From: an uncultured Sphingomonadaceae bacterium
GTDB taxonomy: Bacteria; Pseudomonadota; Alphaproteobacteria; Sphingomonadales; Sphingomonadaceae
Length of the DNA stretch: 64,000 bases
Reading direction: 5' to 3'
Assembly: GCA_947493215.1 (NCBI GenBank)
Contig: CANLQE010000001.1
Span: forward strand, 620,001 to 684,000
This document shows positions 1,087 to 16,099 of this stretch, piece by piece; positions within the stretch are counted from its first letter, which is position 1; each line of letters opens with the position of its first letter. The position numbers were made by a program, and so were the translations under genes. Under the pieces are notes generated by a model. That model was not told the DNA's origin. It saw only the letters and a list, made by a program, of their open reading frames with translations, and made no database searches.

Positions 1087-1728
1087 TTATGTCTGGGGAC
1101 TTGGAGTGGCACTTGCTGACTGGCAACTTGGCCGGGATGACACTTGCTCGTGCCAGCGGGCGAGGTTGTTAAGGCCTTCGTCTGGCTTTAAACCTACCAA
1201 CGACGCTGCGAAATCGACGCCAGTGAGCAAAGTAATGTCGGCAATTGTGAATCGGTCTCCCGCAACAAACTCACTATTCTCAAATTCCTTGTCGAGGCGG
1301 TTGTAATATTGATGTGTTCGTTCATCACTTTGCGCCTTCGCCTCCGGGATTGACTCGAACAATCCCATTGCACCCACAATCGGGCCGTTAATCCATGAAA
1401 TCGAAATTTCGCGCCAATATTCAAACTCCATTTGCCGGTTGCGTGCCTCGATATGCCCCAGTTCATAAGCATCCCGGCCAAATAGATTTGGTTCGGGTTC
1501 AACGGCCTCTAGATAGCGGCAAATCGCGACCGATTCTGGAATACACCGGCCATCATCGAGTTCCAGCACCGGGATTTTACCGCTTGGGTTCTTCTTGAGA
1601 AAACCCGAAACCTTGTGCTCCCTTTTGGTGATGTCGCAATGCACTAGCTCCAGATCAATTCCTTTTTCCGCAGCAAAAATCTTCACTCGCCGTGGGTTGG
1701 GTGCACCGGCATAATCATATAATTTCAT
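1087..1728 (-). CDS. glutathione S-transferase family protein
   Basis: A 213-residue cytosolic GST. The thioredoxin-like N-terminal half (residues 1-80) shows the cis-proline (KIPVLELDDG, Pro53) and the Glu65-Ser66 pair that binds the gamma-glutamyl part of glutathione. An all-helical C-terminal half follows, with the FTIADITLLTGVDF motif typical of bacterial GSTs. Length is normal. It lies 15 bp downstream of the exported hydrolase and 13 bp upstream of the hydrolase-flavin reductase fusion, so it is the middle gene of a three-gene operon. In such catabolic operons GSTs often act as isomerases or glutathione-dependent lyases on ring-cleavage products; that role is inference, and the class cannot be fixed from sequence alone. 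Confidence 0.88.
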   Translation of the reverse strand: MKLYDYAGAPNPRRVKIFAAEKGIDLELVHCDITKREHKVSGFLKKNPSGKIPVLELDDGRCIPESVAICRYLEAVEPEPNLFGRDAYELGHIEARNRQMEFEYWREISISWINGPIVGAMGLFESIPEAKAQSDERTHQYYNRLDKEFENSEFVAGDRFTIADITLLTGVDFAASLVGLKPDEGLNNLARWHEQVSSRPSCQSASATPSPQT

Positions 1729-1743
1729 CGAAAATCTCTCCCG

Positions 1744-3084
1744 TCATTCCTCGGCATTTGCCTGGCGCATTTCCAGCCCGGCCGCCCAGCGGCGCTGGAA
1801 GCCACGCCAGTAAGCATCTTCTTCAGGACCAGCGAGCTTGCCATTGAGCTGTTCGCCAAAGCCAACCGGCCACTCTGCCTTGTTTGACTCAACCGTGGGA
1901 ACGTTCAGATAGCTGGCTTTGTCTTCGTCACCTTTCAACTTCCAATCCAGAAAGGCGGTCGCAAAATGTTGGTTGATCACATTCAACCGATCGCTTCGCC
2001 ATACCGGTTCTTTGAGAAATTCCAGTGCGTTGAAAATCATATCATCGCTGACTTCGAATTCATTACCAACAATATTATGCCGCGCTTCTCGATAGGTCAG
2101 TAAATAACGATCACTGCTTTTCATATTATCGAACAACCAGGTCACACCTTCATCATAATTGACGATATCGTCCTGATTGCCGGAAACAATCAGTGCGGGA
2201 ATATTGATATTGTTCAACGCCTCTGAGCTCCAGACCCGACTATCGGGCTGACCACCCCAGGGCGCAAAAGTAATCAAGGCTTTTATTGGCAATGGCTTGA
2301 TCGTGGCTTCCTTTAAACTATCCTGCGCTGTTTTAGGAATGTTAGACATCAAATCGCTATCGAAAACATAAGGCGCTCCGGCTGAAGCAACGGCGCCGTA
2401 ACCGCCCATCGAATATCCGATCAAGCCCAGTTTTTCTGTATCAATCAAAGAGGCGTAGCCGTTGGTTGCGCCTTTCGTTTCCTCTAAAAGCAGGTGCATT
2501 ATCTGACGCTGGTCGAGCGTGCGGTCGACCAGGACATTACCAAAAGACAAAATTGCAGAAGCGACGCCATCTGCAAGCTCATCTCCATGATCAATCGAAG
2601 CGACCACATATCCATGCGATGCTATATGCTCGCCCAAATTGCTGAACTGAGTGCTCCAGCCGCCATAACCATGTGACATCAGCACAAATGGAAACTTCTG
2701 ATTTGTTAGGGGCGCAGCATCGGAAACGGCGATACCATTGCTGATAATTTCAAATGGATCTTTGCCCGCAAGATTCATCTGATGAATATATTGCGCTGGC
2801 GCAGCCTCGGGACCCTCCTGAGCCGGATACCAGATACGAACCGAAAGTTTGCGCTCCCTGGTGTCCAGATCGCCCGTCAATGCTCCCCAGGCAGTTATTG
2901 TTGTGCGGTTCGGAAGCACATATTCCTTCTCTATTGTGCCAATAGAATATTCCCCGATGCGTCCAAGTTCAGGAGCCTCGCCACCCTGTCCGGGATGAAC
3001 TGTCGGAGAGATAACATAAGCGGTTGCTCCGACCCCAACAGCCAATAGGGCCACAACACCGATAAAAATTCGCCGCTTCTTCAT
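1744..3084 (-). CDS. exported alpha/beta hydrolase, platelet-activating factor acetylhydrolase-like
   Basis: A 446-residue protein starting with a basic n-region and one hydrophobic helix (MKKRRIFIGVVALLAVGVGA), so it is membrane-anchored or periplasmic. The body matches the PAF-acetylhydrolase/dienelactone hydrolase-like group: PFVLMSHGYGG oxyanion strand, nucleophile elbow GYSMGGYG with Ser225, acid Asp305 or Asp306 in SGNQDDIV, and His336 in EARHNIVG. Expected activity is hydrolysis of an ester or lactone before or during uptake. It is first in the operon with the GST and the flavin reductase fusion. A good ribosome site (AGAGGAAA) precedes the ATG, and promoter element 1 lies about 85 bp upstream. 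The true substrate is unknown. Confidence 0.85.
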   Translation of the reverse strand: MKKRRIFIGVVALLAVGVGATAYVISPTVHPGQGGEAPELGRIGEYSIGTIEKEYVLPNRTTITAWGALTGDLDTRERKLSVRIWYPAQEGPEAAPAQYIHQMNLAGKDPFEIISNGIAVSDAAPLTNQKFPFVLMSHGYGGWSTQFSNLGEHIASHGYVVASIDHGDELADGVASAILSFGNVLVDRTLDQRQIMHLLLEETKGATNGYASLIDTEKLGLIGYSMGGYGAVASAGAPYVFDSDLMSNIPKTAQDSLKEATIKPLPIKALITFAPWGGQPDSRVWSSEALNNINIPALIVSGNQDDIVNYDEGVTWLFDNMKSSDRYLLTYREARHNIVGNEFEVSDDMIFNALEFLKEPVWRSDRLNVINQHFATAFLDWKLKGDEDKASYLNVPTVESNKAEWPVGFGEQLNGKLAGPEEDAYWRGFQRRWAAGLEMRQANAEE

Positions 3085-3169
3085 GTCGATTTCCTCTTGT
3101 TTGCAGGCGGATCAAAGGCCCGCATTCCAGTTTCGGCGAGCAGTCCCTTGACTCATTCAGAACATTTTT

Positions 3170-3189
3170 ATTATATAAACCGTAAACTA
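3170..3189 (-). promoter_or_regulatory. shared promoter/operator element, site 1
   Basis: On the minus strand this reads TAGTTTACGGTTTATATAAT. It is identical over 20 bp to site 3 (11712-11731), differs at two positions from site 4 (14251-14270) and at four from site 2 (5640-5659). The last six bases form a perfect -10 box directed at the hydrolase gene starting at 3084. A GTTTA-CG-GTTTA direct repeat sits in the -35/-10 spacer, where a regulator could bind. It lies in the gap between the divergent hydrolase (-) and Coq4-like (+) genes, so it could affect both. The binding protein is not shown; the TetR protein encoded at 4069 is one candidate. Confidence 0.75.
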
Positions 3190-3223
3190 AAATCAAGCAA
3201 TTGCAGATTGGAAAGAGGTGTAA

Positions 3224-3961
3224 ATGCCAAAAGTAGATCGCGAATTTGCAGAAAAATTCCTAACCTCAATAGATGATTATGATGCCTATGGCGTGCACCT
3301 GCTGTTTAACGACTGGTGGGAGAAAGCTCCTCAGGATGCCATTGAGAAATACGTCTTGGCCATAGAAGAGCATCCTGAGCAGGGCCCGCTTGCGAAAGAG
3401 GGTTGGCTGGCACCACCGGTTGATATGGAAAGACTGGCGGGTTGCGCACCGGACACTCTCGGTGAAGCCTATTACCGGTTCATCGTTGACAATGATCTGG
3501 AGGAACAACTGGCCACTGGCTATCGCGACCTGCACGAGGAAATCAAGAGCGATGGCAAGCTACAGCGCATGCCTGATGTGATCCAGTATAAGGTGCTCCG
3601 AGGATATCAGACTCATGACATGCATCATGTCTTGACCGGCTATGATCCGGATCCCGTCGGAGAGATTGCGCTTCAGGCTTTTGGGTTGGCGCAAATGAGC
3701 TACCCATATGCGGGCATGTGGATCGCAGTGATCACGGCCCATATGACCTATTTGGAGCCTGATCTTGTGAAGCCTGCAATGGATGCCATTTCCGATGGCT
3801 GGACCTTTGGTCGTCAGACACGAAATCTACAATTTGTGAAATTTGAACATCAACTGGAGCGACCACTAAAGGATATACAGGTCGAATATGGCCTGTATCC
3901 ACGTTGTTTGCGGTTCAGTGCGGGCAATAGAAGCGCAACCGAGAGTCTCGTTGCGGCATAA
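3224..3961 (+). CDS. Coq4-family protein
   Basis: A 245-residue protein with the diagnostic Coq4 motif HDxxHx11E: His131, Asp132, His135 and Glu147 in THDMHHVLTGYDPDPVGE. In eukaryotes COQ4 binds metal through this motif and takes part in ubiquinone assembly and C1 decarboxylation/hydroxylation. Bacterial homologues occur outside ubiquinone loci and are mostly uncharacterised. Here the gene sits in a catabolic cluster, divergent from the hydrolase-GST-flavin reductase operon, with promoter element 1 between them, and is followed by a TetR regulator in the same direction. A decarboxylase- or hydroxylase-like role on an aromatic intermediate is possible but is inference. No signal peptide is seen. 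The ATG follows GAAAGAGGTG, a usable ribosome site. Confidence 0.82.
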   Translation: MPKVDREFAEKFLTSIDDYDAYGVHLLFNDWWEKAPQDAIEKYVLAIEEHPEQGPLAKEGWLAPPVDMERLAGCAPDTLGEAYYRFIVDNDLEEQLATGYRDLHEEIKSDGKLQRMPDVIQYKVLRGYQTHDMHHVLTGYDPDPVGEIALQAFGLAQMSYPYAGMWIAVITAHMTYLEPDLVKPAMDAISDGWTFGRQTRNLQFVKFEHQLERPLKDIQVEYGLYPRCLRFSAGNRSATESLVAA

Positions 3962-4068
3962 TTTCGAAGCCCGTGGCCCGGCAGAACTGCGCGATAAAGC
4001 CCGTTAAAATATTTGTGTCGCCGATGTCCTTATTGTAACAATGCGACTGCATTACACTAAAAAACAGA

Positions 4069-4734
4069 GTGGGATTTCATTTGTCGGCCGCCACAAAAAT
4101 CAAAAAACAGAAAAACCGCAGACTCAGTCCAGAAGTTCGTAAGAACATTATTTTGGACAAAACCGCCGAGTTAATTGCCAAAGAGGGTGTTTCGGCCGTA
4201 TCCATGGAACGTGTCTCGAGAGAGGTTGGTGTCAGCAAGCCGCTGATTTATATCTATTTTCCGAACAAAACTAATCTGCTAGGAGAGTTGCTTATCCGCG
4301 AGCAGAACAAGCTTATGGACCTGCAAGCGCAAGCAGTGGCCGAAGCCTCTGATTTTGAAGATTATATCCGCCGGACGACCCGCACATATCTCAAGCATGT
4401 CGATGAAACGGGTGACCATGTTCAAAGACTGATGCGCGAGCCATCGGTGGCCGAGGTGTTTGAGGAGTTTGATCGCAAAGACAAGCAACGAGTGGTCGAA
4501 ACGCTTGCAAAAAATGTGTCCAAAACTTTCGACATTCCTCCGAGAACCGCTGCTCTGGCTACGGAAATTGCAATGGGAATGACAGGGGCTGCAGGAGGCA
4601 TGATCGCGCGCGGCGTTGCCAGTCGAAAAAGAATTGAGGAAATAACGCTCAATCTGGCAATGGGAAGCATCAAGGCCATGGAAGATAATTATAGTCGCAA
4701 AGGGAAAAAGAAATCCAAAAAAATACTGAGGTAA
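4069..4734 (+). CDS. TetR/AcrR family transcriptional regulator
   Basis: A 221-residue regulator. The N-terminal HTH covers about residues 22-72 (AELIAKEGVSAVSMERVSREVGVSKPLIYIYFPNKTNLL), a standard TetR DNA-binding domain with the SKPLIYIYFPNK recognition segment. The C-terminal ligand domain is unassigned, and the tail is very basic (RKGKKKSKKILR). The listed start is GTG at 4069; TTG at 4081 is an alternative. It follows the Coq4-like gene by 108 bp on the same strand and converges with an SDR gene. As the only TetR gene in the cluster it is the obvious candidate for reading the four-copy 20-bp promoter element, but this is inference; no copy of that element lies directly in front of it. 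Confidence 0.85.
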   Translation: MGFHLSAATKIKKQKNRRLSPEVRKNIILDKTAELIAKEGVSAVSMERVSREVGVSKPLIYIYFPNKTNLLGELLIREQNKLMDLQAQAVAEASDFEDYIRRTTRTYLKHVDETGDHVQRLMREPSVAEVFEEFDRKDKQRVVETLAKNVSKTFDIPPRTAALATEIAMGMTGAAGGMIARGVASRKRIEEITLNLAMGSIKAMEDNYSRKGKKKSKKILR

Positions 4735-4749
4735 CTTTGTCTACCCTAT

Positions 4750-5520
4750 TCATTGCGCCTTTAAACCACCGTCGACTGGCACCACAGCACCATTTACAAA
4801 TGATGAATTGTCGCTGGCTAGAAATACTATGACGTCTGCTATCTCTGATGGGCTGGCATAGCGTCCCAACGGTATCATCTCCGTAAAATGACTACGAATC
4901 TCAGCTGCTTGAGTTTCGTTCTTTCCCGCTTCCAAGTTCAGCATCATTTGTGTTTCCGTCATGGCTGGGCAGATAGCATTCACCCGAATATTGCGAGAGG
5001 CCAATTCGGATGCCCCAACTTTAGTCATGCCAATCACCGCATGTTTGCTGGCATTGTAAGCAAAGAGCATTTTTCCGCCGCCAATGCCCGATACCGATGA
5101 GATATTCACGATCGAACCGCCGTCATTCAGAATGTTGGCACCATATTTCATACCTAGAAAAACACCACGGCAGTTGACTCGCATCACATTGTCAAAGGCA
5201 TCAACGGGATAATCAGTCAGTAAACAGCTCGGACCCGATATTCCCGCATTGTTGATGATGGTATCGAGCGCATCGAAATTCTGGATCGTCAACTTTTTGG
5301 CGAGATCCCAGGTCTCAGGATCGGATACATCACCCGCGATAGACACTGCGGACGATCCGTTTGTCTCAACAATCGATACGGCGTCTTCAAGCGGAGAATC
5401 CTTAAGATCCATCAAAACTATATTGGCGCCTTCGGCCGATAGCTTTTTGACAGTTGCCAGTCCGATACCTCGTGCTGCGCCGGTAATGAGAGCAGTTTTT
5501 CCTTTGAAATTTCCCGTCAT
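4750..5520 (-). CDS. short-chain dehydrogenase/reductase (classical SDR)
   Basis: A 256-residue classical SDR with every key feature: cofactor loop TGAARGIG (residues 13-20), NNAG, catalytic serine in NISSVSG, and Tyr155-x3-Lys159 in AYNASK. The C-terminus ends in the usual FVNGAVVPVDGG motif. An aspartate after the second strand (LMDLKD) suggests NAD rather than NADP. It should oxidise or reduce a hydroxyl/keto group of a pathway intermediate. It is convergent with the TetR gene and divergent from the TonB-dependent receptor gene; promoter element 2 lies in the gap but points toward the receptor. Confidence 0.9.
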   Translation of the reverse strand: MTGNFKGKTALITGAARGIGLATVKKLSAEGANIVLMDLKDSPLEDAVSIVETNGSSAVSIAGDVSDPETWDLAKKLTIQNFDALDTIINNAGISGPSCLLTDYPVDAFDNVMRVNCRGVFLGMKYGANILNDGGSIVNISSVSGIGGGKMLFAYNASKHAVIGMTKVGASELASRNIRVNAICPAMTETQMMLNLEAGKNETQAAEIRSHFTEMIPLGRYASPSEIADVIVFLASDNSSFVNGAVVPVDGGLKAQ

Positions 5521-5639
5521 AGTCCACTGTACTTTCCGCTCAATCCACTCGGCGCTGCCGCATATAATTATATCATACGTAAATAATGCGCGATAGCATC
5601 TAAGTTTAATACGGTGATTATGTCACAGCTTCGATAATT

Positions 5640-5659
5640 TAACTGACGGTATATATAAT
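5640..5659 (+). promoter_or_regulatory. shared promoter/operator element, site 2
   Basis: The plus strand reads TAACTGACGGTATATATAAT, matching 16 of 20 positions of site 1. The TATAAT -10 box points at the TonB-dependent receptor gene, whose ATG lies about 100 bp downstream, a leader length close to that at the other three sites. The invariant part over all four sites is ACGGT followed by TATATAAT. It is also 120 bp in front of the divergent SDR gene. Orientation and leader length repeating across four loci argue for a real promoter element and against chance AT-rich similarity. Confidence 0.65.
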
Positions 5660-5757
5660 TAATTGACTAGTGAGGGCTCTTATAATAAGGATTGTGACCT
5701 ATCAACGTTGGCAACAGATATGAATTGTTGGCGAGAAAAAGTTGAAGGGGAGAAAAT

Positions 5758-8052
5758 ATGAAACTTGCTAGGAAAATTATTTTAGCAGCGATGCTGACCA
5801 CCGTTGCATTGCCCGTAACACCGGTCTGGGCACAGTCAAATGGTGAAGCACAAGATGGGGATGATCAATCGAAGAATTCTAACATGATTATTGTCACCGC
5901 TCGGAAAACAGAAGAAAGTTTGTTCGAAACACCAGTCGCCGTTTCAGTGATTTCTGGCGAGTTTCTCGAAAAGACGGGATTCGTGGAAATCGGAGATATT
6001 GTGCGCTTTGTACCTGGCTTTGATTTGACTCCGCTCAATACAACGCGGGCAACTGGTTCAAAAATCCGGGGTATTTCTACTTTTAGTTTCAGTGACGGTT
6101 TTGAATCCAGCGTCGCAACAGTTATTGATGGCGTTGTTCTCGGCCGTGAAGCGCAGGGTTTTTTTGATTTTGTTGATGTAGAATCAATCGAAGTGATCAA
6201 GGGTCCTCAGGGCACACTTTTTGGAAAAAATGCATCGGCTGGCGTGATTAACATTCGTACAAAGGCACCGGAATTTGATTTTGGCGGAAAGGCTGACATT
6301 TCCTATGGTAGCTTCGATGAAATAAAAATCCGCGGTACTGTTACCGGTCCGCTGGTTGAGGATAAACTAGCGGCGAGAATTAGTGGGACTTACAACAAGA
6401 GGGATGGTTTTTACGATAACCCCATCGCGGGCGAGTCGGATTTGAATGACAAAGAGCAATTGTCTCTCCGCGCGAAACTATTGTTTCAACCCAATGATGA
6501 ACTGAAGTTTACGCTTGCAGGCGACTATGTAACGGAAGAAAATAATTGTTGCTTGCCTACTTATCGCGTTGCGGGAGCTCCATCAGCAGCATTGCTCTTT
6601 GCTTTAAATCCGGGCGCGGTTCAGTTACAGACAGCTCTAGCACAATTTGGAGTGGTTGCCGGACCAGGCAATCGGTCGGTTCCAGTTCTTGACGAGAATA
6701 TTCTGCAAGAATCGGAAGCTTATGGATTGGCGCTTACGGTTGAACAAGAGCTGGGCGATTTGAACCTGACATCGATCTCCGCTTGGCGTCATTGGGAGAT
6801 TGATGAGTTTAACGAAGCGGATGGCGTTTCCAACTCCAACGTCAATAATCGCAATGGCACCCGGTCCTCCACGGAACAAATTAGCCAGGAACTGCGAATA
6901 GACGGCAAAGTCTCGGATAACGTCTCGCTCGTAGCCGGACTATTCTATTTCCACCAAGATTTGGATGCGCAAGGCCAGGTAGATATTGAACTCGCCTTGC
7001 CGTTCCCACCTTTCTTCAACGTCCGGACGAATGCCGATCGTACAGTCCAAACAGACAGCTTCGCAGTCTTTGGCGAGACGACGTTTGATCTTACTGACAA
7101 GCTCTCTTTGGTACTCGGTGGACGTTATACAAACGAAACTCTGGAAGCCACATATTCGCGCGTTGCGAGTCCTATTCTTCAGGGAGCTCCATTTGGTGCA
7201 TTTTTCGGACCTGACATAAACGGGATGCAAAAAGTAACTGATGAAAATCTGTCAGGACGGGTTATTGGCCGGTATATCTGGTCCGACCAATTGATGACAT
7301 ATGTCTCATGGTCGCGTGGTTATAAGGGACCAGGTATTGATGTAGCCGAAAGCGCCAACGTGGCGGCCATTATGACTCCAGGGGGATTGCCGGTCTTGCC
7401 GCCTGAAATTCCTACACTGTGGGAAGCCGGTGTTCGCGCCAATCTGTTTGATGATGCGCTGGCGGTGAATGTGGCACTTTATCATCAGGACGTGCGAGAT
7501 GTTCAGGGTATTGCCACCAATGCAAATGGAGTAACTTTGAACCTCTCGATCGACAAGATAAGGGCAAAGGGCATTGAAGCAGACTTTATATTGAGGCCTG
7601 CTGCGTTACCAGGTTTCACTCTGTCGGGAAGCTTTACGCACAACGATATCGAGATAAATCAATTTGCAGAACGACCTGACCTTGTGGGCGTCAGATATCG
7701 GGACAATCCTCGCTTCTTCTATTCGGTGGTTGGTGACTATAGGACCAATTTCGGCGCCTCCGATTTCGAAGGCTTCCTAAGAGGGGAATGGACCTGGCAG
7801 TCTTCGAAAAATACCAGTCTCGTCCGCGATCCAACTACATTTGTCGACTCATACGGACTGTTAAACCTACGAGTTGGTGTTAATGGACCTGATAATAAAT
7901 ACGGGGTAACTTTCTCGGTCGAAAATGTGTTTGACAAAGACTATGAACATTTCATTTTTGGTTCTACGTTTAATGCACTCGACGGGACTACTAGATCGCA
8001 ATTCCTGGGCGAAGAACGAACTTGGAACGTGACGTTGCGAACTAAGTTCTGA
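5758..8052 (+). CDS. TonB-dependent receptor
   Basis: A 764-residue outer-membrane receptor. A signal peptide (MKLARKIILAAMLTTVALPV...VWA) is followed by a TonB box-like stretch (MIIVTARK, about residue 43), the plug domain (about 55-170, with IEVIKGPQGTLFGKNASAGVINI), and a 22-strand barrel ending in the C-terminal aromatic signature TLRTKF. It imports a large or poorly permeant substrate using proton-motive force via TonB. Its place inside the catabolic cluster, behind promoter element 2, suggests it takes up the compound that the neighbouring enzymes degrade; siderophore receptor signatures are not obvious. An adjacent cysteine pair (NNCCLPTY, about residue 263) is shared with the receptor at 50308. 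The ribosome site AAGGGGAG precedes the ATG. Confidence 0.93.
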   Translation: MKLARKIILAAMLTTVALPVTPVWAQSNGEAQDGDDQSKNSNMIIVTARKTEESLFETPVAVSVISGEFLEKTGFVEIGDIVRFVPGFDLTPLNTTRATGSKIRGISTFSFSDGFESSVATVIDGVVLGREAQGFFDFVDVESIEVIKGPQGTLFGKNASAGVINIRTKAPEFDFGGKADISYGSFDEIKIRGTVTGPLVEDKLAARISGTYNKRDGFYDNPIAGESDLNDKEQLSLRAKLLFQPNDELKFTLAGDYVTEENNCCLPTYRVAGAPSAALLFALNPGAVQLQTALAQFGVVAGPGNRSVPVLDENILQESEAYGLALTVEQELGDLNLTSISAWRHWEIDEFNEADGVSNSNVNNRNGTRSSTEQISQELRIDGKVSDNVSLVAGLFYFHQDLDAQGQVDIELALPFPPFFNVRTNADRTVQTDSFAVFGETTFDLTDKLSLVLGGRYTNETLEATYSRVASPILQGAPFGAFFGPDINGMQKVTDENLSGRVIGRYIWSDQLMTYVSWSRGYKGPGIDVAESANVAAIMTPGGLPVLPPEIPTLWEAGVRANLFDDALAVNVALYHQDVRDVQGIATNANGVTLNLSIDKIRAKGIEADFILRPAALPGFTLSGSFTHNDIEINQFAERPDLVGVRYRDNPRFFYSVVGDYRTNFGASDFEGFLRGEWTWQSSKNTSLVRDPTTFVDSYGLLNLRVGVNGPDNKYGVTFSVENVFDKDYEHFIFGSTFNALDGTTRSQFLGEERTWNVTLRTKF

Positions 8053-8068
8053 TCGCGCAAAGGCATGT

Positions 8069-8128
8069 GTGACGCTGCTAGTCGGTCGGTTCTCTCCCGT
8101 TCTCGCCATCCGCAGCGTCACGATTTTT
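8069..8128 (+). terminator. possible rho-independent terminator after the TonB-dependent receptor gene
   Basis: A 10-bp perfect inverted repeat, GTGACGCTGC (8069-8078) and GCAGCGTCAC (8112-8121), with a 33-base loop is followed by GATTTTT. It lies 17 bp after the receptor stop codon. The long loop makes it weaker than a textbook terminator. The next gene begins just after it, so partial read-through into the VOC gene is possible. Confidence 0.5.
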
Positions 8129-8136
8129 GAAAGCTT

Positions 8137-9084
8137 TTGCTTGTGATAACCGGATTACATCATGTCGGCCTCGGTGTTGCCCATCTGGACAATGCCATAG
8201 ACTTTTATGAACAAATTGCCGGATTCTCGACTGTGTCCCGTTACTCACGGGATGCAGAAAGCCCGCTGCGGGAAGGTCTAAATGCGGGAAGTGCTTCCAT
8301 AGAAATTGCTCTGATTGCAGGTCCGAATGGCTATATTGAATGCGCGGCAATGGCTCCGAAAACTGCTGATGTTTCCGATTCCACCCCGCCGATTAATGAG
8401 TCCGGTATCCGCCATTTCTGTATCCAGAACCGGGATTGTGCTATGTTGGCTGGAGGTGTTAAAAATGCCGGTGGCTCACTGTTTGCCGATCCTCTCGATC
8501 TCGGAACCGGCAATCAATATGCCTATGCCCGTGATCATGAGGGTAATATTATCGAAATCGAAGGCCTTCCCTATGTGCCCGCAGAACAACCGAGCTGGTT
8601 GGGTCATGTTGCAATTGTGACGCCTGATCTGGATAGGATAGTTGCATTCTACAGTGATATTCTTCGTTCCGAACCTCAGGGTCGCGGTATGGTCGGGCCG
8701 GGGCCACAATCTGACAAAATGGGCAACCTCAAAGATGCTCAACTCGAAGGTGCATGGCTGCCAACTCCAAACATGTTGCTCGAATTCTGGCAATTTCATA
8801 CGCCGGAATCACCACCCAAAAAAACACCAACGACCATGCTGGATTTGGGTTACACGCATATCTGTCTGGAGACAGATGATCTGGATGGCGACATGACGCA
8901 GATGATCGGAGCGGGTGCCGCCGCAATTTGTGAACCCATAGAGACCTATAATGTGCGCATCCAATTTGCCCGAGATCCTGACGGCAATATTGTCGAGCTT
9001 CTTGAGCCTCAGGACGGCTTTGATCAGACCATTAGCGCGCTAACGGATACAGAAATATGCAGCCGGACTGATGCCTTGAAATAG
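8137..9084 (+). CDS. VOC superfamily protein with two domains, extradiol dioxygenase/glyoxalase-like
   Basis: A 315-residue protein with two vicinal-oxygen-chelate modules: residues 4-145 (LHHVGLGVAHLDNAIDFYEQIAGF ending in HEGNIIEIEG) and residues 150-300 (LGHVAIVTPDLDRIVAFYSDILRSEP ending in RDPDGNIVELLEP). Metal ligands of the VOC fold can be seen as His in HHVG and HVAI and Glu in IIEIEG and IVELLE. Two-module VOC proteins include type I extradiol dioxygenases and isomerases such as lactoylglutathione lyase relatives; this one is short of a classical BphC motif, so ring cleavage is only likely. The start is TTG at 8137 or GTG at 8143; no strong ribosome site decides. It is downstream of the receptor and convergent with the MDR reductase. 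Confidence 0.75.
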   Translation: MLVITGLHHVGLGVAHLDNAIDFYEQIAGFSTVSRYSRDAESPLREGLNAGSASIEIALIAGPNGYIECAAMAPKTADVSDSTPPINESGIRHFCIQNRDCAMLAGGVKNAGGSLFADPLDLGTGNQYAYARDHEGNIIEIEGLPYVPAEQPSWLGHVAIVTPDLDRIVAFYSDILRSEPQGRGMVGPGPQSDKMGNLKDAQLEGAWLPTPNMLLEFWQFHTPESPPKKTPTTMLDLGYTHICLETDDLDGDMTQMIGAGAAAICEPIETYNVRIQFARDPDGNIVELLEPQDGFDQTISALTDTEICSRTDALK

Positions 9085-9089
9085 TGGTA

Positions 9090-10085
9090 TCAGACTTTTA
9101 GCAGCAACTTACCGTTATTCTTACCTTCAAATAACATTCTCAAAATCGCAGGAAAATTCTCGATGCCCTGTTCGATTTGGTCGCGGAACTGTAACTTCCC
9201 GTCACGATGCCATTGCAACAAGTCCGCTCTTGCTTCGGCATATTGCTCGGTGAAATGAAAGTTTACATAACCCTGCATCCGGGCCGCTTTGCCGATCAGG
9301 TTGAGATAATTGCGCGGCGCGTGCACCGCATCCAGATTATCATATTCTCCAATGGCGCCGCAAATGACGATACGCGCGTGCAGCGCTATATTATCGAGAG
9401 CATTTTCAAGCAACTCGCCGCCCACATTGTCAAAATAGACATCGATCCCGTTCGGGCAAAGTTCCTGCATCCGGCCGGCAATAGATTCAGACTTGTAATC
9501 GATACATGCGTTTGCACCATATTCATCCACAACCCTCCTGCACTTTTCCGGGCCGCCGGCAATGCCTATCACGCGGCATCCTTTTAATTTGGCGATCTGA
9601 ACGGCGATATGGCCAACCGCTCCTGCAGCTGCAGATACTACGACTGTTTCCCCATCTCGAAGCGCACCCACTGACAATAGTCCGAAATAGGCAGCCAGAC
9701 CCGTGCCCCCCAAACCGCCCAGGTAATGCCGAATGTCGATTTCTCCGGGATCAAGTTTCATCACATCGGCAGTAGAACCTGCGTAAACAGATTGAATACC
9801 AAAACGCCCCATGACCTTGTCGCCAACCTGATAGTCCGTCGATTTGCTTTCTATAACCTCGCCAATACCGCCGGATCGCATCAACTCTCCAATTGCCAAA
9901 GGGGGTACATAGCTCGCTTTATCGGCGAGCCATGTTCGCATCGCCGGATCTACCGAGCAATATTCCAGAGCAACGCGGATCTCGTCGCCGTTAAGTTCTG
10001 GAACTACTTCTGATGCGATCTCGAACGTCGTATCTGTAATTTCACCAATTGGCCGCTCGGCCAATCGCACCGTCATATTATTCAT
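9090..10085 (-). CDS. NADP-dependent oxidoreductase, zinc-independent MDR family (leukotriene B4 12-dehydrogenase/PTGR-like)
   Basis: About 331 residues when started at ATG 10085; a longer frame to 10124 would overlap the transporter gene. The fold is medium-chain dehydrogenase: a GroES-like domain (1-120), then the Rossmann part with VVVSAAAGAVGHIAVQIAKLKGCRVIGIAGG, the AxxGxxG nucleotide loop of the PTGR/CurA group. Zinc-binding cysteines are absent, consistent with enone reduction rather than alcohol oxidation. YFDNVGGELL is a family hallmark. It probably reduces an alpha,beta-unsaturated carbonyl intermediate. It follows the MFS gene by four bases and is almost certainly co-transcribed from promoter element 3. 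Confidence 0.88.
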   Translation of the reverse strand: MNNMTVRLAERPIGEITDTTFEIASEVVPELNGDEIRVALEYCSVDPAMRTWLADKASYVPPLAIGELMRSGGIGEVIESKSTDYQVGDKVMGRFGIQSVYAGSTADVMKLDPGEIDIRHYLGGLGGTGLAAYFGLLSVGALRDGETVVVSAAAGAVGHIAVQIAKLKGCRVIGIAGGPEKCRRVVDEYGANACIDYKSESIAGRMQELCPNGIDVYFDNVGGELLENALDNIALHARIVICGAIGEYDNLDAVHAPRNYLNLIGKAARMQGYVNFHFTEQYAEARADLLQWHRDGKLQFRDQIEQGIENFPAILRMLFEGKNNGKLLLKV

Positions 10086-10089
10086 CACA

Positions 10090-11625
10090 CTAGCTTTCTG
10101 TTTGCAACTTTGATTCCAGTCCATGGGTCTCTTGATGGTCTTCGCCCTGATGCTTTTTCTTGTGCGACAGTTGTTTGATAATTTTATTATGCTCCGAGCG
10201 GGTCAGACGATATCTGGCATAAAGGGGAATTGCGAATAGCGCACCGAAGGCCATTATTGGTCCTCCTGCCAGAGCCAATCGAAAAATGACGTCTTCATCA
10301 ACTTTCCCTGGGACCGCGTTGAACGGCATTCGAATGAACAGGTCGAGCATGACACCTGCGATAAAGTGGCCAGCGGAATTGGATGCCTTGGCGAAAAAAG
10401 CTCTGGCAGAATAGATCAATCCCTCCTGGCGTAATCCTTTTTCCAGTTCGATCTGATCAGAAATATCCCCCAGCATTGACAGAACCGAAACCGCCGCAAT
10501 CGCGATGGATCCGGCGACTACGGCCATTTGTAACATCAATAAAGGTAATAATAGTGGAGATTCGTTGGTCACGAATAGACCAAGTAATCGAAGATTAAGC
10601 GGTGTTTGTACGGCGATGACTACGGCGATGATCGACCATAGTAAGACTGGGCGACGATCAAATCTTCGCATCATAGCGGGTGCAATTAGGGCCCCTACCA
10701 CGATGGCCGGCATTGCTGCCAATCCGAACCATTTAATATCCTCTGTACCCAATTCCCAAACATATGTGTTCACGAATACAGCAAAGACTTCGTTCAGTCC
10801 GACAGACATCATGAAAAAGAAAAAGCCAGCGATCAGGAACAGATAATTTCTGTTCTCAGCAGCATTGAGGAGATCATGATAATAGTTTTTCAGGCTTATC
10901 TTGCTTTGGTTCGCAGGCGGTGCGCTGAGCATTGGAATACGGTTATATGTACCCCAAGCACTTATCACGATGGTCGATAAAATGATACCGCATGCCGTCA
11001 GAACCAGAGGTCCATAGGCATCCGCATCCAGATGTCGGGGTATTGCATCGCCATTGGTATTGATCGTTTCACCGCCAAGGAAATATCCCCAGGCGGTAAA
11101 GGCAAACAAAGCACCAGTCATATACCCAAAGACCGAGTTGATACTGAACAATCGGGAACGATCGTTGGCGTCTTTGGTCAATTCGCCACCAAGGGCAAAA
11201 TGCGGAATTGTGTATAATGTGAGAAACAAACGCGCCAATATCGTCCAAATGCAAAGCCAGGCGAATAAAGCGATTTGGGAGGGTTCTCCGTTATCCCCAC
11301 CGGTCAGCAATGAATCGGGCGGCATGAAGACCAGATAGACCGCGACAACAACAGGAATGGGGGCCGCAAATAGAAATGGGTGGCGCCTACCGATCCGCGA
11401 ACGCCAGCGGTCGGAAATCATGCCAACGGCCGGATCGGACACTGCATCGCCCAATAAGGCAATCATGATCGCCACGCCGATCAAGCTATTAGAAAGTCCC
11501 AAAGCCTGATTGTAGTAGATCGTGATAAAAGTGTTGAACATGCCGAAAAAGACCTGTTCGCCCACTGCACCAATTCCATAAGCAAGTTTCGTCGGCAATG
11601 GCAGTCTGGATTGCGTTGCGCTCAT
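10090..11625 (-). CDS. MFS transporter of the GPH (MelB-like) family
   Basis: A 511-residue inner-membrane transporter with about 12 hydrophobic segments. The N-terminal motif LPLPTKLAYGIGAVGEQVFF and the loop AVSDPAVGMISDRWRSRIGRRHPFLF match the glycoside-pentoside-hexuronide:cation symporters (TC 2.A.2), which also include many sphingomonad and SAR11-type carriers for non-sugar substrates. The C-terminal tail is charged and His-rich (KKKHQGEDHQETHG). It presumably moves the pathway substrate across the cytoplasmic membrane after TonB-dependent entry. The ribosome site GGGGAGGAG precedes the ATG; promoter element 3 is 87-106 bp upstream; the MDR gene follows almost directly. Confidence 0.88.
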   Translation of the reverse strand: MSATQSRLPLPTKLAYGIGAVGEQVFFGMFNTFITIYYNQALGLSNSLIGVAIMIALLGDAVSDPAVGMISDRWRSRIGRRHPFLFAAPIPVVVAVYLVFMPPDSLLTGGDNGEPSQIALFAWLCIWTILARLFLTLYTIPHFALGGELTKDANDRSRLFSINSVFGYMTGALFAFTAWGYFLGGETINTNGDAIPRHLDADAYGPLVLTACGIILSTIVISAWGTYNRIPMLSAPPANQSKISLKNYYHDLLNAAENRNYLFLIAGFFFFMMSVGLNEVFAVFVNTYVWELGTEDIKWFGLAAMPAIVVGALIAPAMMRRFDRRPVLLWSIIAVVIAVQTPLNLRLLGLFVTNESPLLLPLLMLQMAVVAGSIAIAAVSVLSMLGDISDQIELEKGLRQEGLIYSARAFFAKASNSAGHFIAGVMLDLFIRMPFNAVPGKVDEDVIFRLALAGGPIMAFGALFAIPLYARYRLTRSEHNKIIKQLSHKKKHQGEDHQETHGLESKLQTES

Positions 11626-11711
11626 ATCGATGCCACTCTCCTCCCCAATTTATTCCGGTCGTTAGATATTACATCTTTTGCCAAGAATTGGCTTGGATAG
11701 CAGCATCACTT

Positions 11712-11731
11712 ATTATATAAACCGTAAACTA
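11712..11731 (-). promoter_or_regulatory. shared promoter/operator element, site 3
   Basis: The minus strand reads TAGTTTACGGTTTATATAAT, identical to site 1 over the full 20 bp although the flanks differ. The -10 box points at the MFS transporter gene (ATG at 11625). The element lies between the divergent transporter and SnoaL-like genes. The hexamer at the expected -35 position is poor, so activation by a bound regulator is plausible; repression through the spacer is the alternative. Confidence 0.75.
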
Positions 11732-11813
11732 CGGATAGAGAGGTTGGCAATGACTGTCAAACCTATGGTTTGGAAATATTTTGAAAACCGAATATTGAAA
11801 GAACGAGGCAAAC

Positions 11814-12167
11814 ATGGATTACAATCGATTGGCGCATACTCTTTACGAGAGGTTTAATGCGCGTGATGTTGATGGTATATTTGAACTGCTGCACGCCGAG
11901 GTGGAATGGGTGAATGAACCCAAAGATATTCACGTTCACGGACTTGATGAATTGCACGTGGTTTGGACACGGCAAAAAGGCACTGCGATTGTCCATTTTG
12001 ATGTCACTAGCGTAACTCCAAAGGAGAACGGGTTTTTTGTTGTCGTTCAGGAGAAGGTCTGGACGCATGAAAAAGAGCTGTTGTTTGATGGTCCTGTTGG
12101 CCATGACTATACATTGAAAGAGGAAAAGATCATCCGATGTGACATTGTCGATGCCGATGCAGGATAG
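11814..12167 (+). CDS. SnoaL/NTF2-like protein
   Basis: A 117-residue alpha+beta barrel protein of the nuclear transport factor 2-like superfamily: an N-terminal helix (YNRLAHTLYERFNARDVDGIFELLHAEVEWVNEP) followed by the curved sheet (DELHVVWTRQKGTAIVHFDVTSV and GFFVVVQEKVWTHEKELLFDGP). Members include polyketide cyclases, ketosteroid isomerase and limonene epoxide hydrolase; the catalytic pattern does not select one. It is divergent from the transporter, with promoter element 3 between them, and convergent with the aldo/keto reductase gene. A cyclase, isomerase or hydratase step is inferred only from the fold. Confidence 0.75.
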   Translation: MDYNRLAHTLYERFNARDVDGIFELLHAEVEWVNEPKDIHVHGLDELHVVWTRQKGTAIVHFDVTSVTPKENGFFVVVQEKVWTHEKELLFDGPVGHDYTLKEEKIIRCDIVDADAG

Positions 12168-12178
12168 CCCAAAGTTAG

Positions 12179-13144
12179 CTACCAGGCGTAAGCTTCCGGT
12201 GCCTTTCCTTGCTTCGGGAATATCGCGTCGATTTGGGCAAGCACTTCATCGTCGAGGATAATGTCGGGTACACTCAGACTGGAGATGAGCTGCTCTACTG
12301 AAGCAGGTCCGATAAGGGGCGCTGCAACACCCGGTTGATAAAGCAACCAGGAAAGGGCAACGCTACTGGGAGAATGTTGCAGGTCACTGCAGAGTTTTTC
12401 AAATTTCTCTAGTTGAGGAACATATTTGGCTCGCGCGCTTTGCGCATCTTCACTTCGGCGGCGCCCTGATTTTGAACCGTTACAGCCCGCTAATAAACCA
12501 CCCGCCAAAGGGCTCCAAGGAATCAAGCCAAGACCATATTCACGACATGCTGGAAGCACCTCGAGTTCAACCCGCCGTTCGATCAGATTATAAAGACTTT
12601 GCTCCGAAACCAACTGGAATTGATTGCGTGTGATCGACTGCTCACTTGCCTTTGCTATCGCCCACCCAGGGAAGTTACTCGATCCAACATAACGCACTTT
12701 TCCTTGCTTCATGAGCCTATCCATAGCCTCCCAAGTTTCCTCAAACGGAACCGCGCGATCAATATGATGCATTTGATAGAGGTCGATATGATCCACGCCG
12801 AGCCGTTTCAAACTGGCGTCGCAGGCTTCCTGAATATGCCGAGCTGACAATCCGCGGTCCTCGGGATCATCCGACATAGGTTCATAGACTTTCGTAGCCA
12901 ATATGATCCGATCCCGCCGAGCTGAGTCCTGAGCAAACCATTTACCGAGGATAATCTCTGTCGCGCCAACACCCAAATGGCCGCCATACTGATTGGCGGT
13001 ATCAATGAAGTTGATGCCGGCCTCCACAGCATTGTTAAGAATGTTGAATGATTCTTCTTCGGATGTCCGGGGACCGAAATTCATGGTGCCAAGGCACAAA
13101 TTACTAACCCGAAGATCGGAATGCCCAAGATCTCGATAGTCCAT
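12179..13144 (-). CDS. aldo/keto reductase
   Basis: About 321 residues from ATG at 13144; an upstream in-frame start at 13222 would overlap the dioxygenase gene. The TIM-barrel AKR tetrad is visible: Asp and Tyr in FIDTANQYG, Lys in ATKVYEPM, and His in YQMHHID. GLIPWSPLAGGLLAG and the C-terminal LIGPASVEQL cofactor motif place it in the AKR11-13/Tas-like group, which uses NADPH. It sits 25 bp after the phytanoyl-CoA dioxygenase-like gene and is probably expressed with it from promoter element 4. It likely reduces an aldehyde or ketone intermediate. Confidence 0.9.
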   Translation of the reverse strand: MDYRDLGHSDLRVSNLCLGTMNFGPRTSEEESFNILNNAVEAGINFIDTANQYGGHLGVGATEIILGKWFAQDSARRDRIILATKVYEPMSDDPEDRGLSARHIQEACDASLKRLGVDHIDLYQMHHIDRAVPFEETWEAMDRLMKQGKVRYVGSSNFPGWAIAKASEQSITRNQFQLVSEQSLYNLIERRVELEVLPACREYGLGLIPWSPLAGGLLAGCNGSKSGRRRSEDAQSARAKYVPQLEKFEKLCSDLQHSPSSVALSWLLYQPGVAAPLIGPASVEQLISSLSVPDIILDDEVLAQIDAIFPKQGKAPEAYAW

Positions 13145-13169
13145 TTTCAGCCGCCAACTCTGAAATGGT

Positions 13170-14147
13170 TCATGGCGCGCGCAGCGTTGATCCAGAGACC
13201 AGGGTTTGGCTGGAATCGACAACCAGATGCCGGGTAAAGCTTTGTGCCCGCTCGGAGAGTTTTTGAAAATCCTGATAGTCTATTCCAGGGATCATGGGTT
13301 CCCGAAACCAAGGAGCGTAAAATTCCAGATTGGGAATCGAGCGCACTTTGTTGGACAGGTTGGGCGTGCCGCCATGCCAAGCCCGAACATCCCGGATCAT
13401 AATGCTGCCCGCAGGCGCAGGACAAACAGTGCTGAGTCGCATCCATTCGGGTTCTTCCTTGAGGCTTGGAATCGGTGCTCTGGAATTTTGCGTGCCCGGT
13501 ATCTGGCGGGTTGGGCCATTCAGCCGGGTTACGTCCTGTGGGAGAAAATTGACGCAAATATAAGGACAAGACAAATCACGCAAGCTGATCTGACCTCGCG
13601 GATCATGGTAGGAACTAAATGGTGAATTCCCCGATACCTTCCATTCACTCACATCGGAATGCAGCGGTTGATATTCTTCGGTTCCAGGCAAGCAGAAATC
13701 ACCGCTAGCTGCCCTCAATATATAGTTTGGCGATTCAAAGAGCGCATCTAGCAGCGTCCATACTTGAGGTATTTCCAACAGCATCTGCCACGCAGGGCGG
13801 TGCAACTGGCTGCGCGTCAAACTGGATCCACCAAAAGAATAGCGGCCCGACCCGCGATTACCCTTATTTTGCTCATCCAAATCCAGAATCTCGTCAATAA
13901 CTTCAGCGCAGCCCGCCGCCAATGATTGAACTTGTTCTTGGTTCAGAATATCTGAGACCAAGACAAAACCGTCGCGTCTAAAAGATGTCGTAATCCCTTG
14001 AATATCTGTAGATTGCTTGATTTCCAGATTCCGGATGCCATTATTACCTTCAAGATATCTTCGTTTTTCGGGGACCTCTACATTTTCGGTACGAGGGTAG
14101 GTTTCGGATTGGCTTATTACAGAATCATCGTTCGATGTTTCGGTCAC
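13170..14147 (-). CDS. phytanoyl-CoA dioxygenase (PhyH) family, Fe(II)/2-oxoglutarate oxygenase
   Basis: About 325 residues from GTG at 14147, which has AGGAA six bases upstream. A longer frame begins with TTG at 14267, but that codon lies inside promoter element 4 and is unlikely. The 2-oxoglutarate oxygenase facial triad is visible: His and Asp in HSDVSEW and a distal His in RAWHGGTPN, with Arg a few residues on (NKVRSI) to hold 2-oxoglutarate. FRRDGFVLVSDILNQEQV marks the PhyH N-terminus. The family hydroxylates or oxidatively modifies small molecules, often next to a carbonyl. Two genes appear to form one unit: this oxygenase, then the aldo/keto reductase. Confidence 0.85.
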   Translation of the reverse strand: MTETSNDDSVISQSETYPRTENVEVPEKRRYLEGNNGIRNLEIKQSTDIQGITTSFRRDGFVLVSDILNQEQVQSLAAGCAEVIDEILDLDEQNKGNRGSGRYSFGGSSLTRSQLHRPAWQMLLEIPQVWTLLDALFESPNYILRAASGDFCLPGTEEYQPLHSDVSEWKVSGNSPFSSYHDPRGQISLRDLSCPYICVNFLPQDVTRLNGPTRQIPGTQNSRAPIPSLKEEPEWMRLSTVCPAPAGSIMIRDVRAWHGGTPNLSNKVRSIPNLEFYAPWFREPMIPGIDYQDFQKLSERAQSFTRHLVVDSSQTLVSGSTLRAP

Positions 14148-14250
14148 ATTTAATTCCTGATGCTGTTTCTGGTCACAGAATTGTTCAACGTAGATTAGCA
14201 ATAGATCAAACTTAGGGAGCTCGTTGCCAACTGAAATGCGCTTATCATTA

Positions 14251-14270
14251 ATTATATAAACCGTCAATTA
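14251..14270 (-). promoter_or_regulatory. shared promoter/operator element, site 4
   Basis: The minus strand reads TAATTGACGGTTTATATAAT, with 18 of 20 positions the same as sites 1 and 3. The -10 box points at the PhyH-like gene; from the GTG start at 14147 the distance is just over 100 bp. The site shows that the upstream in-frame TTG (14267) is not the translation start. Confidence 0.72.
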
Positions 14271-14404
14271 AGATAATCGAAAAATCGTTTTGCATACCCA
14301 TGCATGATGTGGTTGGAGATCAATTCAATTCGTAAATTTGTTCTAAGGTAGTAATTTTGATTACCCTCCAGAGAGTCCGCGTTCGGGATATTACAGACAT
14401 AAAT

Positions 14405-14439
14405 CTAATGTCCGCTTTGGGCATAAAAGCGGACATTAG
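14405..14439. repeat. intergenic hairpin repeat, copy A
   Basis: A perfect 14-bp inverted repeat (CTAATGTCCGCTTT and its complement) around a 7-base loop. It is the shortest, single-hairpin form of the dispersed repeat family seen at ten places between 14.4 and 48.8 kb. There is no T-run, so it is not a standard terminator. Confidence 0.85.
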
Positions 14440-14484
14440 CTGGACTTGATATCAAAGCTATTTGTTTAGTGCGCAAAGAGCGAT

Positions 14485-15789
14485 TCAACCCAATTCGGAT
14501 ATTGCTGCCAATGCTCGGTCAATTTCCTGCTCATTGTTGAGCAAACTTGGCGCAAAACGCGCATAGCTTATGCGATAGGGCGTGCTGCTCATGATGATGG
14601 CCTTGCTGTGCATTCGTTTAACAACTTCGCCGGGTGCCATTCCGTCAATATCAAAGCAGGCGAAACCGGAAGATGATCCGGTCGATAAAGGTGTATGCAG
14701 TTTTACGTGTGCCATCTTCGCGAGCCCCTCTTTGGTTTGGGTGTTAAGTTGGTGGATACGATCTTGGACATTTGCTTTCCCCAATTGAAGATGTAACTCA
14801 AACGCGGCAGGGAGCGCCCAGCGATGCTCAAAGCTGTGGAAACCGCCCGGCGACATATGCTGACCCATCGGGACTTGATCCTGTTCAGCTAATCCGCGCC
14901 AGGCATAAGTGGAAAGACTAAAACTGGGGATTATAGCATCACAGGCTCCCCAAGCACGATCATTGCCCCAGATCACTCCTGTACCGCGCGGTCCGAAAAT
15001 CCATTTATGGGTACCGCCGATGAAGAAATCGCAGCCTAGCTTGCTCACATCTTCATTTTCAATTCCCAATCCGTGTACACCGTCCACACAAAATATGATC
15101 TGATCGGCAATGTCTCTTTTAGCGTTCACTGCGTCGATAACGTCGGCCATGGTCCGAATTGGCAGCTTTACTCCACTTGATGAATGTACCCAAGTGACGG
15201 CCACCACCCGTGTTTTGTCTGCAATGGCTTTGCTGAGACGTTGGACGGCATCCTCAGGCCTGAACAATGCTGGATCGTCATAGAGCGCAATTTTGCGGAT
15301 CGCGGCCCCTGAGCGCTGCGCGGCAAATTCAATCGCCATGTCTGATGAATAATGTTCATGAACAGTATGCAATATTTCATCGCCGGGCTCTAATTTGAGG
15401 CCCCCATAGACTAAGCCGAGCCCCATAGTTGTGCTGTCGGTCAAAGCAAACTGATGAAATTCGCCGCCCATATAGCGCGCTGCCGTTTCAGCGACCAGAT
15501 AGTCATACTTTGGAAAACTATCCTGCAGGAAATCGGACGGATTTTCGTCCAGAGCGCGCCGGATTTTCTCAATCGCATCAGACACGGGTTTAGGGTGCGA
15601 TGCGATAAGGAAAGTCGACAATTGAATATAGTCACGGGTTAGCGGAAACAGCGATCTCAGGGCCTTCCAGTCACCAGCTTTGATGGGGCCAGACTGTGAC
15701 GAAGCGGAGGCTGAAACACTGTTCCCACCAACTAGCGCGCTGGCGCCTATTGTTGCACCTGCGCCGCCTAGAAATTGACGCCTCAACAT
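14485..15789 (-). CDS. Tat-exported class V aminotransferase-fold PLP enzyme (isopenicillin N epimerase-like)
   Basis: 434 residues from ATG at 15789, preceded by AGGAGAG; a longer frame from 15861 would bury the signal. The N-terminus MLRRQFLGGAGATIGASALVGG carries a twin-arginine motif and hydrophobic stretch ending SVSASA, so the folded, cofactor-loaded protein is probably exported. The body is class V aminotransferase/cysteine desulfurase fold: GGTHKWIFGPRGTG with PLP-binding Lys262, and VDGVHGLG with the cofactor-contacting Asp. Relatives include isopenicillin N epimerase and EgtE-like C-S lyases. A periplasmic PLP enzyme is uncommon. Substrate unknown. It is the last gene of the minus-strand run from 19.8 kb, but separated by 300 bp including a gene remnant, so it may have its own promoter. 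Confidence 0.85.
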   Translation of the reverse strand: MLRRQFLGGAGATIGASALVGGNSVSASASSQSGPIKAGDWKALRSLFPLTRDYIQLSTFLIASHPKPVSDAIEKIRRALDENPSDFLQDSFPKYDYLVAETAARYMGGEFHQFALTDSTTMGLGLVYGGLKLEPGDEILHTVHEHYSSDMAIEFAAQRSGAAIRKIALYDDPALFRPEDAVQRLSKAIADKTRVVAVTWVHSSSGVKLPIRTMADVIDAVNAKRDIADQIIFCVDGVHGLGIENEDVSKLGCDFFIGGTHKWIFGPRGTGVIWGNDRAWGACDAIIPSFSLSTYAWRGLAEQDQVPMGQHMSPGGFHSFEHRWALPAAFELHLQLGKANVQDRIHQLNTQTKEGLAKMAHVKLHTPLSTGSSSGFACFDIDGMAPGEVVKRMHSKAIIMSSTPYRISYARFAPSLLNNEQEIDRALAAISELG

Positions 15790-15966
15790 ATTGTCTCTCC
15801 TCTGTTTGTGTTCGACTAAAATGGGGTCTATTTCGATCATAACGCTGTTACGGCGCGACAAATTTTACACAGTTCGATAGCGTCCGTTTCCGGGATGAAC
15901 CCAACATGATGCGATTTCAGCTGTTCTCGCAAAACTGATGCAAGTACAGCGATGCACTGTTGGACT

Positions 15967-16089: not shown

Positions 16090-16099
16090 AGCAGTTCTC

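Follow-up and report, generated by a model that had tools for sequence, protein, structure and literature searches.

Five predicted operators of a TetR-family regulator in a catabolic module of an uncultured Sphingomonadaceae bacterium

EdcR of Caenibius tardaugens is a TetR-like repressor of the oestradiol edc cluster that responds to oestrogens and has known ligands, and its single palindrome lies across the -10 box at two operon promoters, with less conserved versions in front of edcT, a receptor gene, and of edcR itself (PMC8700777). In Sphingobium sp. SHPJ-2, expression of a catabolic operon and of TonB receptor genes rises when the repressor PheR is lost (PMC13273656), and in C. tardaugens the TetR gene EGO55_16300 has been proposed to control bsd I, a bile-salt cluster (PMC12882949). 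The present work concerns a 64,000-nucleotide stretch of DNA from an uncultured Sphingomonadaceae bacterium (contig CANLQE010000001.1, positions 620,001 to 684,000), hereafter the window, in which a 22-bp element recurs around a TetR-family gene at 4069–4734 (+), within a putative catabolic module that includes a TonB-dependent receptor. As with EdcR, a sphingomonad TetR-type protein, here a proposed repressor, is encoded beside catabolic operons, and the proposed operator overlaps the -10 box at several promoters; however, the EdcR operator, TnnCnnTACnAnTnGTAnnGnnA, is unlike the present one, and a search of the window at ≤1 mismatch did not find it; the two systems were compared by layout and operator. 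PheR shares with the proposed system the role of a sphingomonad repressor of catabolic and TonB receptor genes but belongs to the IclR family with a different operator, and the palindromes proposed for EGO55_16300, ATAGGGCCATTG and GCATGCGGGATGC, are also unlike the element. Literature searches, which were not exhaustive, returned no description of this TetR regulator or its operator; within their reach, the type of control proposed here, a TetR repressor with local operators, is familiar and the regulator and its recognition code appear undescribed.

We place the probability at roughly 80% that each copy of the element is an operator of the TetR-family protein encoded at 4069–4734, with the right half of the site serving as the -10 box, the bound dimer blocking RNA polymerase and an inducer releasing all units together. 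A sequence-only reading of the window had reported four copies of a 20-bp form of the element, and the window search bore out their positions, strands and mismatch numbers: TAGTTTACGGTTTATATAAT occurs exactly at 3170–3189 (-) and 11712–11731 (-), with two changes at 14251–14270 (-) and with four changes at 5640–5659 (+), against an expectation of 0.00 copies at ≤3 mismatches in 100 shuffled windows. That reading would have been refuted by copies at many unrelated genes, an outcome that the genome search did not give. Across the whole genome (3,685,390 bases) the core TTKACGGTWTATATAAT has four matches at ≤1 mismatch, at these same four places only, all within one 11-kb cluster. No match has two mismatches and 24 have three, giving a total of 28 compared with 34 for the reversed control, and as a whole the three-mismatch matches are at background level; two of the 24 are accounted for by a fifth site in the window (genome position 625567) and by a copy at G000:C3:182876, both described below. 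Alignment of the sites showed the true conserved unit to be 22 bp long, T[A/T]ATTGACGGTNTATATAATAA, with inverted symmetry.

A weight-model search was performed with a sequence-only model built from 22 sites of four related loci (L062–L065), with no sequence of the window included, and 150 of 797 first-look candidates in the genome were scored. Five sites were recovered with E<1, all in the cluster, and the next match lay elsewhere at E 1.03; the window thus holds five predicted operators (O1–O5), one more than the four first counted. O1 (3168–3189, -; TAGTTTACGGTTTATATAATAA; E 1.1e-4 genome-wide) directs its -10 box toward the hydrolase and glutathione S-transferase (GST) genes and is invariant in 21 of 22 columns among four genomes. 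O2 (5565–5586, -; TTATTTACGTATGATATAATTA) is the additional, weaker site (E 0.19 genome-wide, 0.0033 in the window); it faces the short-chain dehydrogenase gene SDR1, which starts at 5520, and is present at the same place in three loci of the same genus. O3 (5640–5661, +; TAACTGACGGTATATATAATTA; E 2.2e-4) precedes the TonB-dependent receptor gene, O4 (11710–11731, -; TAGTTTACGGTTTATATAATAA; E 3.2e-5; 22/22 columns invariant) precedes the GPH transporter and CurA genes with a divergent SnoaL gene opposite, and O5 (14249–14270, -; TAATTGACGGTTTATATAATTA; E 5.5e-6; 20/22 columns invariant) precedes the PhyH and aldo/keto reductase (AKR) genes. Downstream of O3 by 27 bp, at 5667–5688, lies a second TATAATAA with a degenerate left arm, whose TATAATA is retained in the three same-genus loci and which is perhaps a tandem site or a second promoter; with three mismatches and 4.5 bits at 5680–5690 it was too weak to be counted as an operator.

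Two details of the first description changed on inspection. Each TATAAT had been said to point to the nearest gene start about 80–110 bp away, and the distances hold, with the -10 box 85 bp from the start codon at 3084, 98 bp from that at 5758, 86 bp from that at 11625 and ~103 bp from the GTG at 14147. The word nearest does not hold for the 3170 copy, whose closest start, 34 bp off and on the opposite side, belongs to the Coq4-like gene; the SnoaL gene lies 82 bp from the 11712 copy, also on the opposite side, and is as near as the transporter. The GTTTA-CG-GTTTA direct repeat, described as part of the conserved element, was rejected as the recognition unit, as it is found in the window in the two exact copies (O1 and O4) only and is absent from the other aligned sites, which have TTGACGGT or TTGACGA.

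The orthologous clusters were located by a search with the receptor protein, which returned five loci: L062–L064, from Sphingorhabdus sp. EL138 and two uncultured Sphingomonadaceae of the same genus (genomes G023, G014 and G026; receptor 89% identical), and two distant bins, L065 from an alphaproteobacterial metagenome-assembled genome (MAG; G551, 99% complete; 64%) and L066 from a Parvularculaceae MAG (G810; 63%). Across the three same-genus loci the GST-to-PhyH block is collinear; on the right it stops after PhyH, on the left it extends as in the genome under study, and the element is present at all five places of the window in 3/3. In L065 the module genes stand in a different order, and nine matches to the generic pattern were found (seven at ≤2 mismatches and two at three), eight of which exceed 8 bits by the weight matrix; the ninth, at 20821, has three mismatches and falls below 8 bits and was not counted. 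The eight operators precede the amidohydrolase, PhyH, Coq4-like, TetR, receptor, GPH, VOC and alpha/beta-hydrolase genes, and those before the amidohydrolase and Coq4-like genes face away from the gene, as O1 does with respect to Coq4 in the window. L066 contains two sites of the window's type (A type) at ≤3 mismatches, before the receptor and hydrolase genes, and two further A-type sites of the same genome lie on a 4.7-kb contig with a GPH gene (78% identical) and an amidohydrolase gene (85% identical). That the operator sites are kept despite the changed gene order argues for function.

At ≤3 mismatches, the A-type pattern has 28 matches in the six genomes with an orthologue of the TetR gene compared with one for the reversed control; 26 of these lie in the clusters and the other two on the 4.7-kb contig that carries orthologues of the GPH and amidohydrolase genes. 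Among 396 genomes of the order, a set that leaves out the three same-genus genomes, the A pattern at ≤2 mismatches gave 20 matches, four in the genome under study and 16 in 14 others; these 16 never fall two to a contig and are at the level of the control (17). Among the four genomes compared, 99 of 110 operator columns are invariant; the remainder of the four intergenic regions that hold the operators reaches 369 of 637, and the Coq4–TetR gap reaches 69 of 107.

The TetR gene at 4069 had been named as the local candidate regulator, and this assignment was strengthened by the orthologous clusters and by paralogues of the protein found beside variants of the element. Residues 28–74 match the TetR_N helix-turn-helix domain PF00440 (E 1.5e-14, 53.9 bits against a cut-off of 24). 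The AlphaFold model, made with five sequences, consists of helices only (mean predicted local distance difference test score 74.1), and a comparison with the PDB gave 327 matches at E≤0.001, the 50 matches listed being mostly TetR-family by description. An orthologue is present in 6/6 genomes, counting L062–L066 and the genome under study. It is nevertheless conceivable that another regulator binds the element, and the best candidate is a second TetR gene of the region (G000:C1:619234–619851), which is found in 5/6 genomes and in the Parvularculaceae bin lies between two operator sites; L066 also has an Lrp/AsnC-type gene (1675–2127), ~4 kb outside the block. We regard this as unlikely, since a search of the whole G551 genome, in which eight operators precede module genes, gave no match to the second TetR at E≤1e-20, no further regulator appeared in Pfam scans of ten other open reading frames (ORFs) of L065, and it is paralogues of the first TetR that are accompanied by variants of the element.

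These paralogues are ~40% identical to the TetR at 4069 and lie in their own clusters near a sister 22-mer with palindromic arms, TTATTGACTATTTTTACAATAA (B type). All nine B-type paralogue loci L067–L075 have a site at ≤2 mismatches, as do 3/3 of L093–L095, and the 20 loci L067–L086 together contain 55 matches at ≤3 mismatches compared with 14 for the reversed pattern. Some TetRs of 36% identity are accompanied by AATTTGACTTTTCATATAATTA-like sites; the copy in the genome under study, at G000:C3:182876, lies between a receptor gene and a VOC gene. In the B set, complementarity at pairs 2–6 of the 22-mer holds in 24, 20, 25, 26 and 23 of 26 sites, giving TTATTG-N10-CAATAA, a symmetry that is inflated as most B sites were collected with a pattern of symmetric arms; in four distinct sites first seen with a pattern that set no letters for the left arm, pairs 2–6 are complementary in 4/4. 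Within the same genus the A and B weight matrices barely recognise each other's sites: A-type sites score 30.6–34.3 under A and 5.1–15.0 under B, B sites score 2.9–13.6 under A, and the best site of the window, which was outside the matrix training, scores 33.8 under A and 12.5 under B. The separation is weaker at distance, with sites in L071 and L093 reaching 22.9 and 21.2 under A.

From these comparisons we lean slightly toward the view that paralogous TetR repressors, each beside its own TonB-receptor/VOC/SDR module, have split an ancestral 22-bp operator into largely insulated codes, in which the -10 box, TATAAT in one branch and TACAAT in another, is at the same time the right half-site, and symmetry has been traded against promoter strength. 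The TetR homologues of L067–L086, at 32–42% identity, recur with a two-domain VOC gene (19/20), an SDR gene (17/20) and a TonB receptor gene (14/20) in the stretches examined; we know of no name for this family of catabolic modules. In L062 (18440–21990) the B-type operators of the next module follow within ~3.3 kb of the A-type module, so that two TetR codes adjoin.

In the proposed mechanism, the left arm TNATTGAC would lie in the promoter spacer, and the right arm, which in the A set is TATAATNA and contains a perfect -10 box, would at once be the -10 element; TATAAT overlaps the operator in 5/5 window sites. A TetR dimer on the operator would cover about -27 to -4 of the presumed start and exclude RNA polymerase, keeping off the units hydrolase–GST, Coq4-like–TetR, SDR1, TonB receptor–VOC, GPH transporter–CurA, SnoaL and PhyH–AKR, until an inducer frees TetR and all units are switched on together; the inducer would probably be the substrate, once imported, or one of its early products. 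O1 and O4 lie between divergent genes, and their other strand offers TATAAA or TATTAT (at O1 toward Coq4–TetR). Since -10-like hexamers are found on either strand of the operator, these two sites probably also serve the divergent genes Coq4–TetR and SnoaL, in which case TetR would be autoregulated; the operator directly before tetR in L065 likewise suggests that Coq4–TetR is under its own control, provided that O1 is bidirectional. On the SnoaL side, TTGGCT-17-TATTAT matches 9 of 12 consensus positions, although shuffled sequence gives more such matches. In Escherichia coli, bidirectional promoters that share one -10 element are established, and symmetry is described there as a general promoter property (PMC12825309). 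The likeness is in the hexamers on both strands of O1 and O4; the difference is that here the symmetry coincides with a proposed TetR operator.

Several observations weigh against the assignment of the sites as operators of a TetR repressor. Among the paralogues, locus L076 (TetR 44% identical) is without a site, and only four of the ten loci L077–L086 (TetRs 32–38%) have one at ≤2 mismatches. A proximity test in 16 genomes (~59 Mb) speaks for the assignment, with 43 matches to the common pattern at ≤1 mismatch, 38 of them within 11 kb of a TetR homologue, three for the reversed control and such stretches making up ≤0.8% of the ~59 Mb, but it is partly circular, since the pattern first came to notice in some of these loci; in G369 and G097, which were not used in forming the pattern, 7 of 8 matches are TetR-proximal. 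The A-type dyad is weak (4.73 symmetric pairs per site, compared with a shuffle mean of 3.70 and maximum of 4.77), which may reflect an arm compromised in favour of promoter strength. The -35 boxes match poorly, with 4 of 6 positions at best, and promoter-like matches number 11 against 18.6 in shuffles; both features would be compatible with an activated promoter, too. Among the PDB matches listed, the nearest solved fold is FasR of Mycobacterium tuberculosis (TetR family; PDB 6o6o, 6o6n with C20-CoA, 6o6p with DNA), a named activator, with ~20% identity in the structural match; the FasR profile NF053731 is the second-best of 20 NCBIfam matches, at 45.2 bits far below its cut-off of 330.

The same TetR might accordingly bind the sites as an activator, with the ligand-bound regulator compensating for the weak -35 boxes. 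We judge this quite unlikely, given that polymerase should be excluded by a dimer bound at the site, which spans the -10 box and the spacer, and that TATAAT is perfect in 5/5 window sites. A perfect -10 box is unusual for a promoter that needs an activator. That the element is a mere strong core promoter or a duplicated promoter fragment with no dedicated regulator would agree with the perfect -10 box inside it and with the two identical copies, but is highly improbable in view of the conservation over 22 bp, the TTGAC that ends 6 bp before TAYAAT and not at the 16–18 bp of a -35 box, the differing flanks of the copies, the lack of the pattern at ≤1 mismatch elsewhere in the genome and its recurrence in distant clusters with other gene order.

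If repression by the TetR at 4069 is correct, a regulator and a readable operator code are assigned to the catabolic module, and the code predicts module membership, for some genes beyond the window as well. In the order Sphingomonadales, other TonB-receptor modules are marked by related codes, which could be used in delimiting regulons, in choosing promoters for inducer screens and in building sensors, as has been done with EdcR (PMC8700777).

Each of the 12 genes at 1087–14147 can belong to a unit started at one of the operators, if same-strand neighbours are co-transcribed. On the left are a glutathione S-transferase (1087–1728, -; PF02798) and an alpha/beta hydrolase resembling PETase or platelet-activating-factor (PAF) acetylhydrolase (1744–3084, -; PF12740 E 9.9e-13, PF03403 E 4.3e-11), whose N-terminal hydrophobic stretch, judged by eye, suggests export. 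The Coq4-like protein (3224–3961, +; PF05019 E 1.4e-13) is encoded upstream of the TetR gene and probably co-transcribed with it. SDR1 (4750–5520, -; PF13561) and the TonB-dependent receptor (5758–8052, +; PF00593, PF07715) diverge, and the receptor gene is followed by that of a two-domain VOC (glyoxalase/dioxygenase) protein (8137–9084, +; PF00903) with a fold like glyoxalase I and two-domain dioxygenases. Further right lie a CurA-like enone reductase (9090–10124, -; NF058644 E 1.4e-92, but 310 of 440 bits and below the cut-off), a GPH-family transporter (10090–11625, -; PF13347 E 7.3e-66), a SnoaL-like protein (11814–12167, +; PF12680), an aldo/keto reductase (12179–13222, -; PF00248) and a PhyH-like Fe/2-oxoglutarate oxygenase (13170–14147, -; PF05721), the start of which was moved by context to the GTG at 14147, as the TTG at 14267 in the ORF list falls within the element.

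The shared sites and conserved linkage suggest that all module genes may act on one compound. From the receptor, GPH, esterase-like hydrolase, GST, reductase, PhyH, VOC, SnoaL and Coq4-like families, the module would be guessed to import a hydrophobic ester or lactone, which may contain an enone, and to break it down stepwise. In comparisons with solved structures, PAF acetylhydrolases, an esterase and a cutinase came out as similar to the hydrolase, and a putative ubiquinone-biosynthesis protein and Alr8543 as matches to the Coq4-like protein; a PDB sequence search with the VOC protein gave no match at E≤1e-5. Together these matches were insufficient to name one compound. Seven plasmid relatives of the hydrolase were found, the best 39% identical, with no hint at a substrate, and no plasmid-borne relative of the TetR gene was found at E≤1e-20.

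To the left of the window (L096, G000:C1:605001–621500) the block goes on at 12874–16112 of that stretch, with an amidohydrolase (12927–14144), the second TetR gene (14234–14851), close to the left edge of the window, and a fusion of an alpha/beta-hydrolase with a flavin reductase (14844–16112, -). A degenerate operator, TAGTTTATACATTATATAATAA (15.0 bits), lies 31 bp before the amidohydrolase gene in the same orientation as the good operator in L065; the corresponding operator in the same-genus loci is equally weak or weaker (9.9–15.2 bits), and it has perhaps been taken over by the second TetR. To the right, a hairpin of 14 pairs followed by a T-rich run (14405–14439) lies between O5 and an aminotransferase gene (14485–15861, -) and is likely a terminator isolating the module from its right neighbour, in a region where terminator-like matches are no commoner than in shuffles. 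A second gene that by eye appears to encode a TonB-dependent receptor lies at 50308–53037, and the element was not found near it at ≤3 mismatches. The window also encodes, at 27708–33350, a repetitive protein of 1880 residues with a C-terminus that by eye is autotransporter-like.

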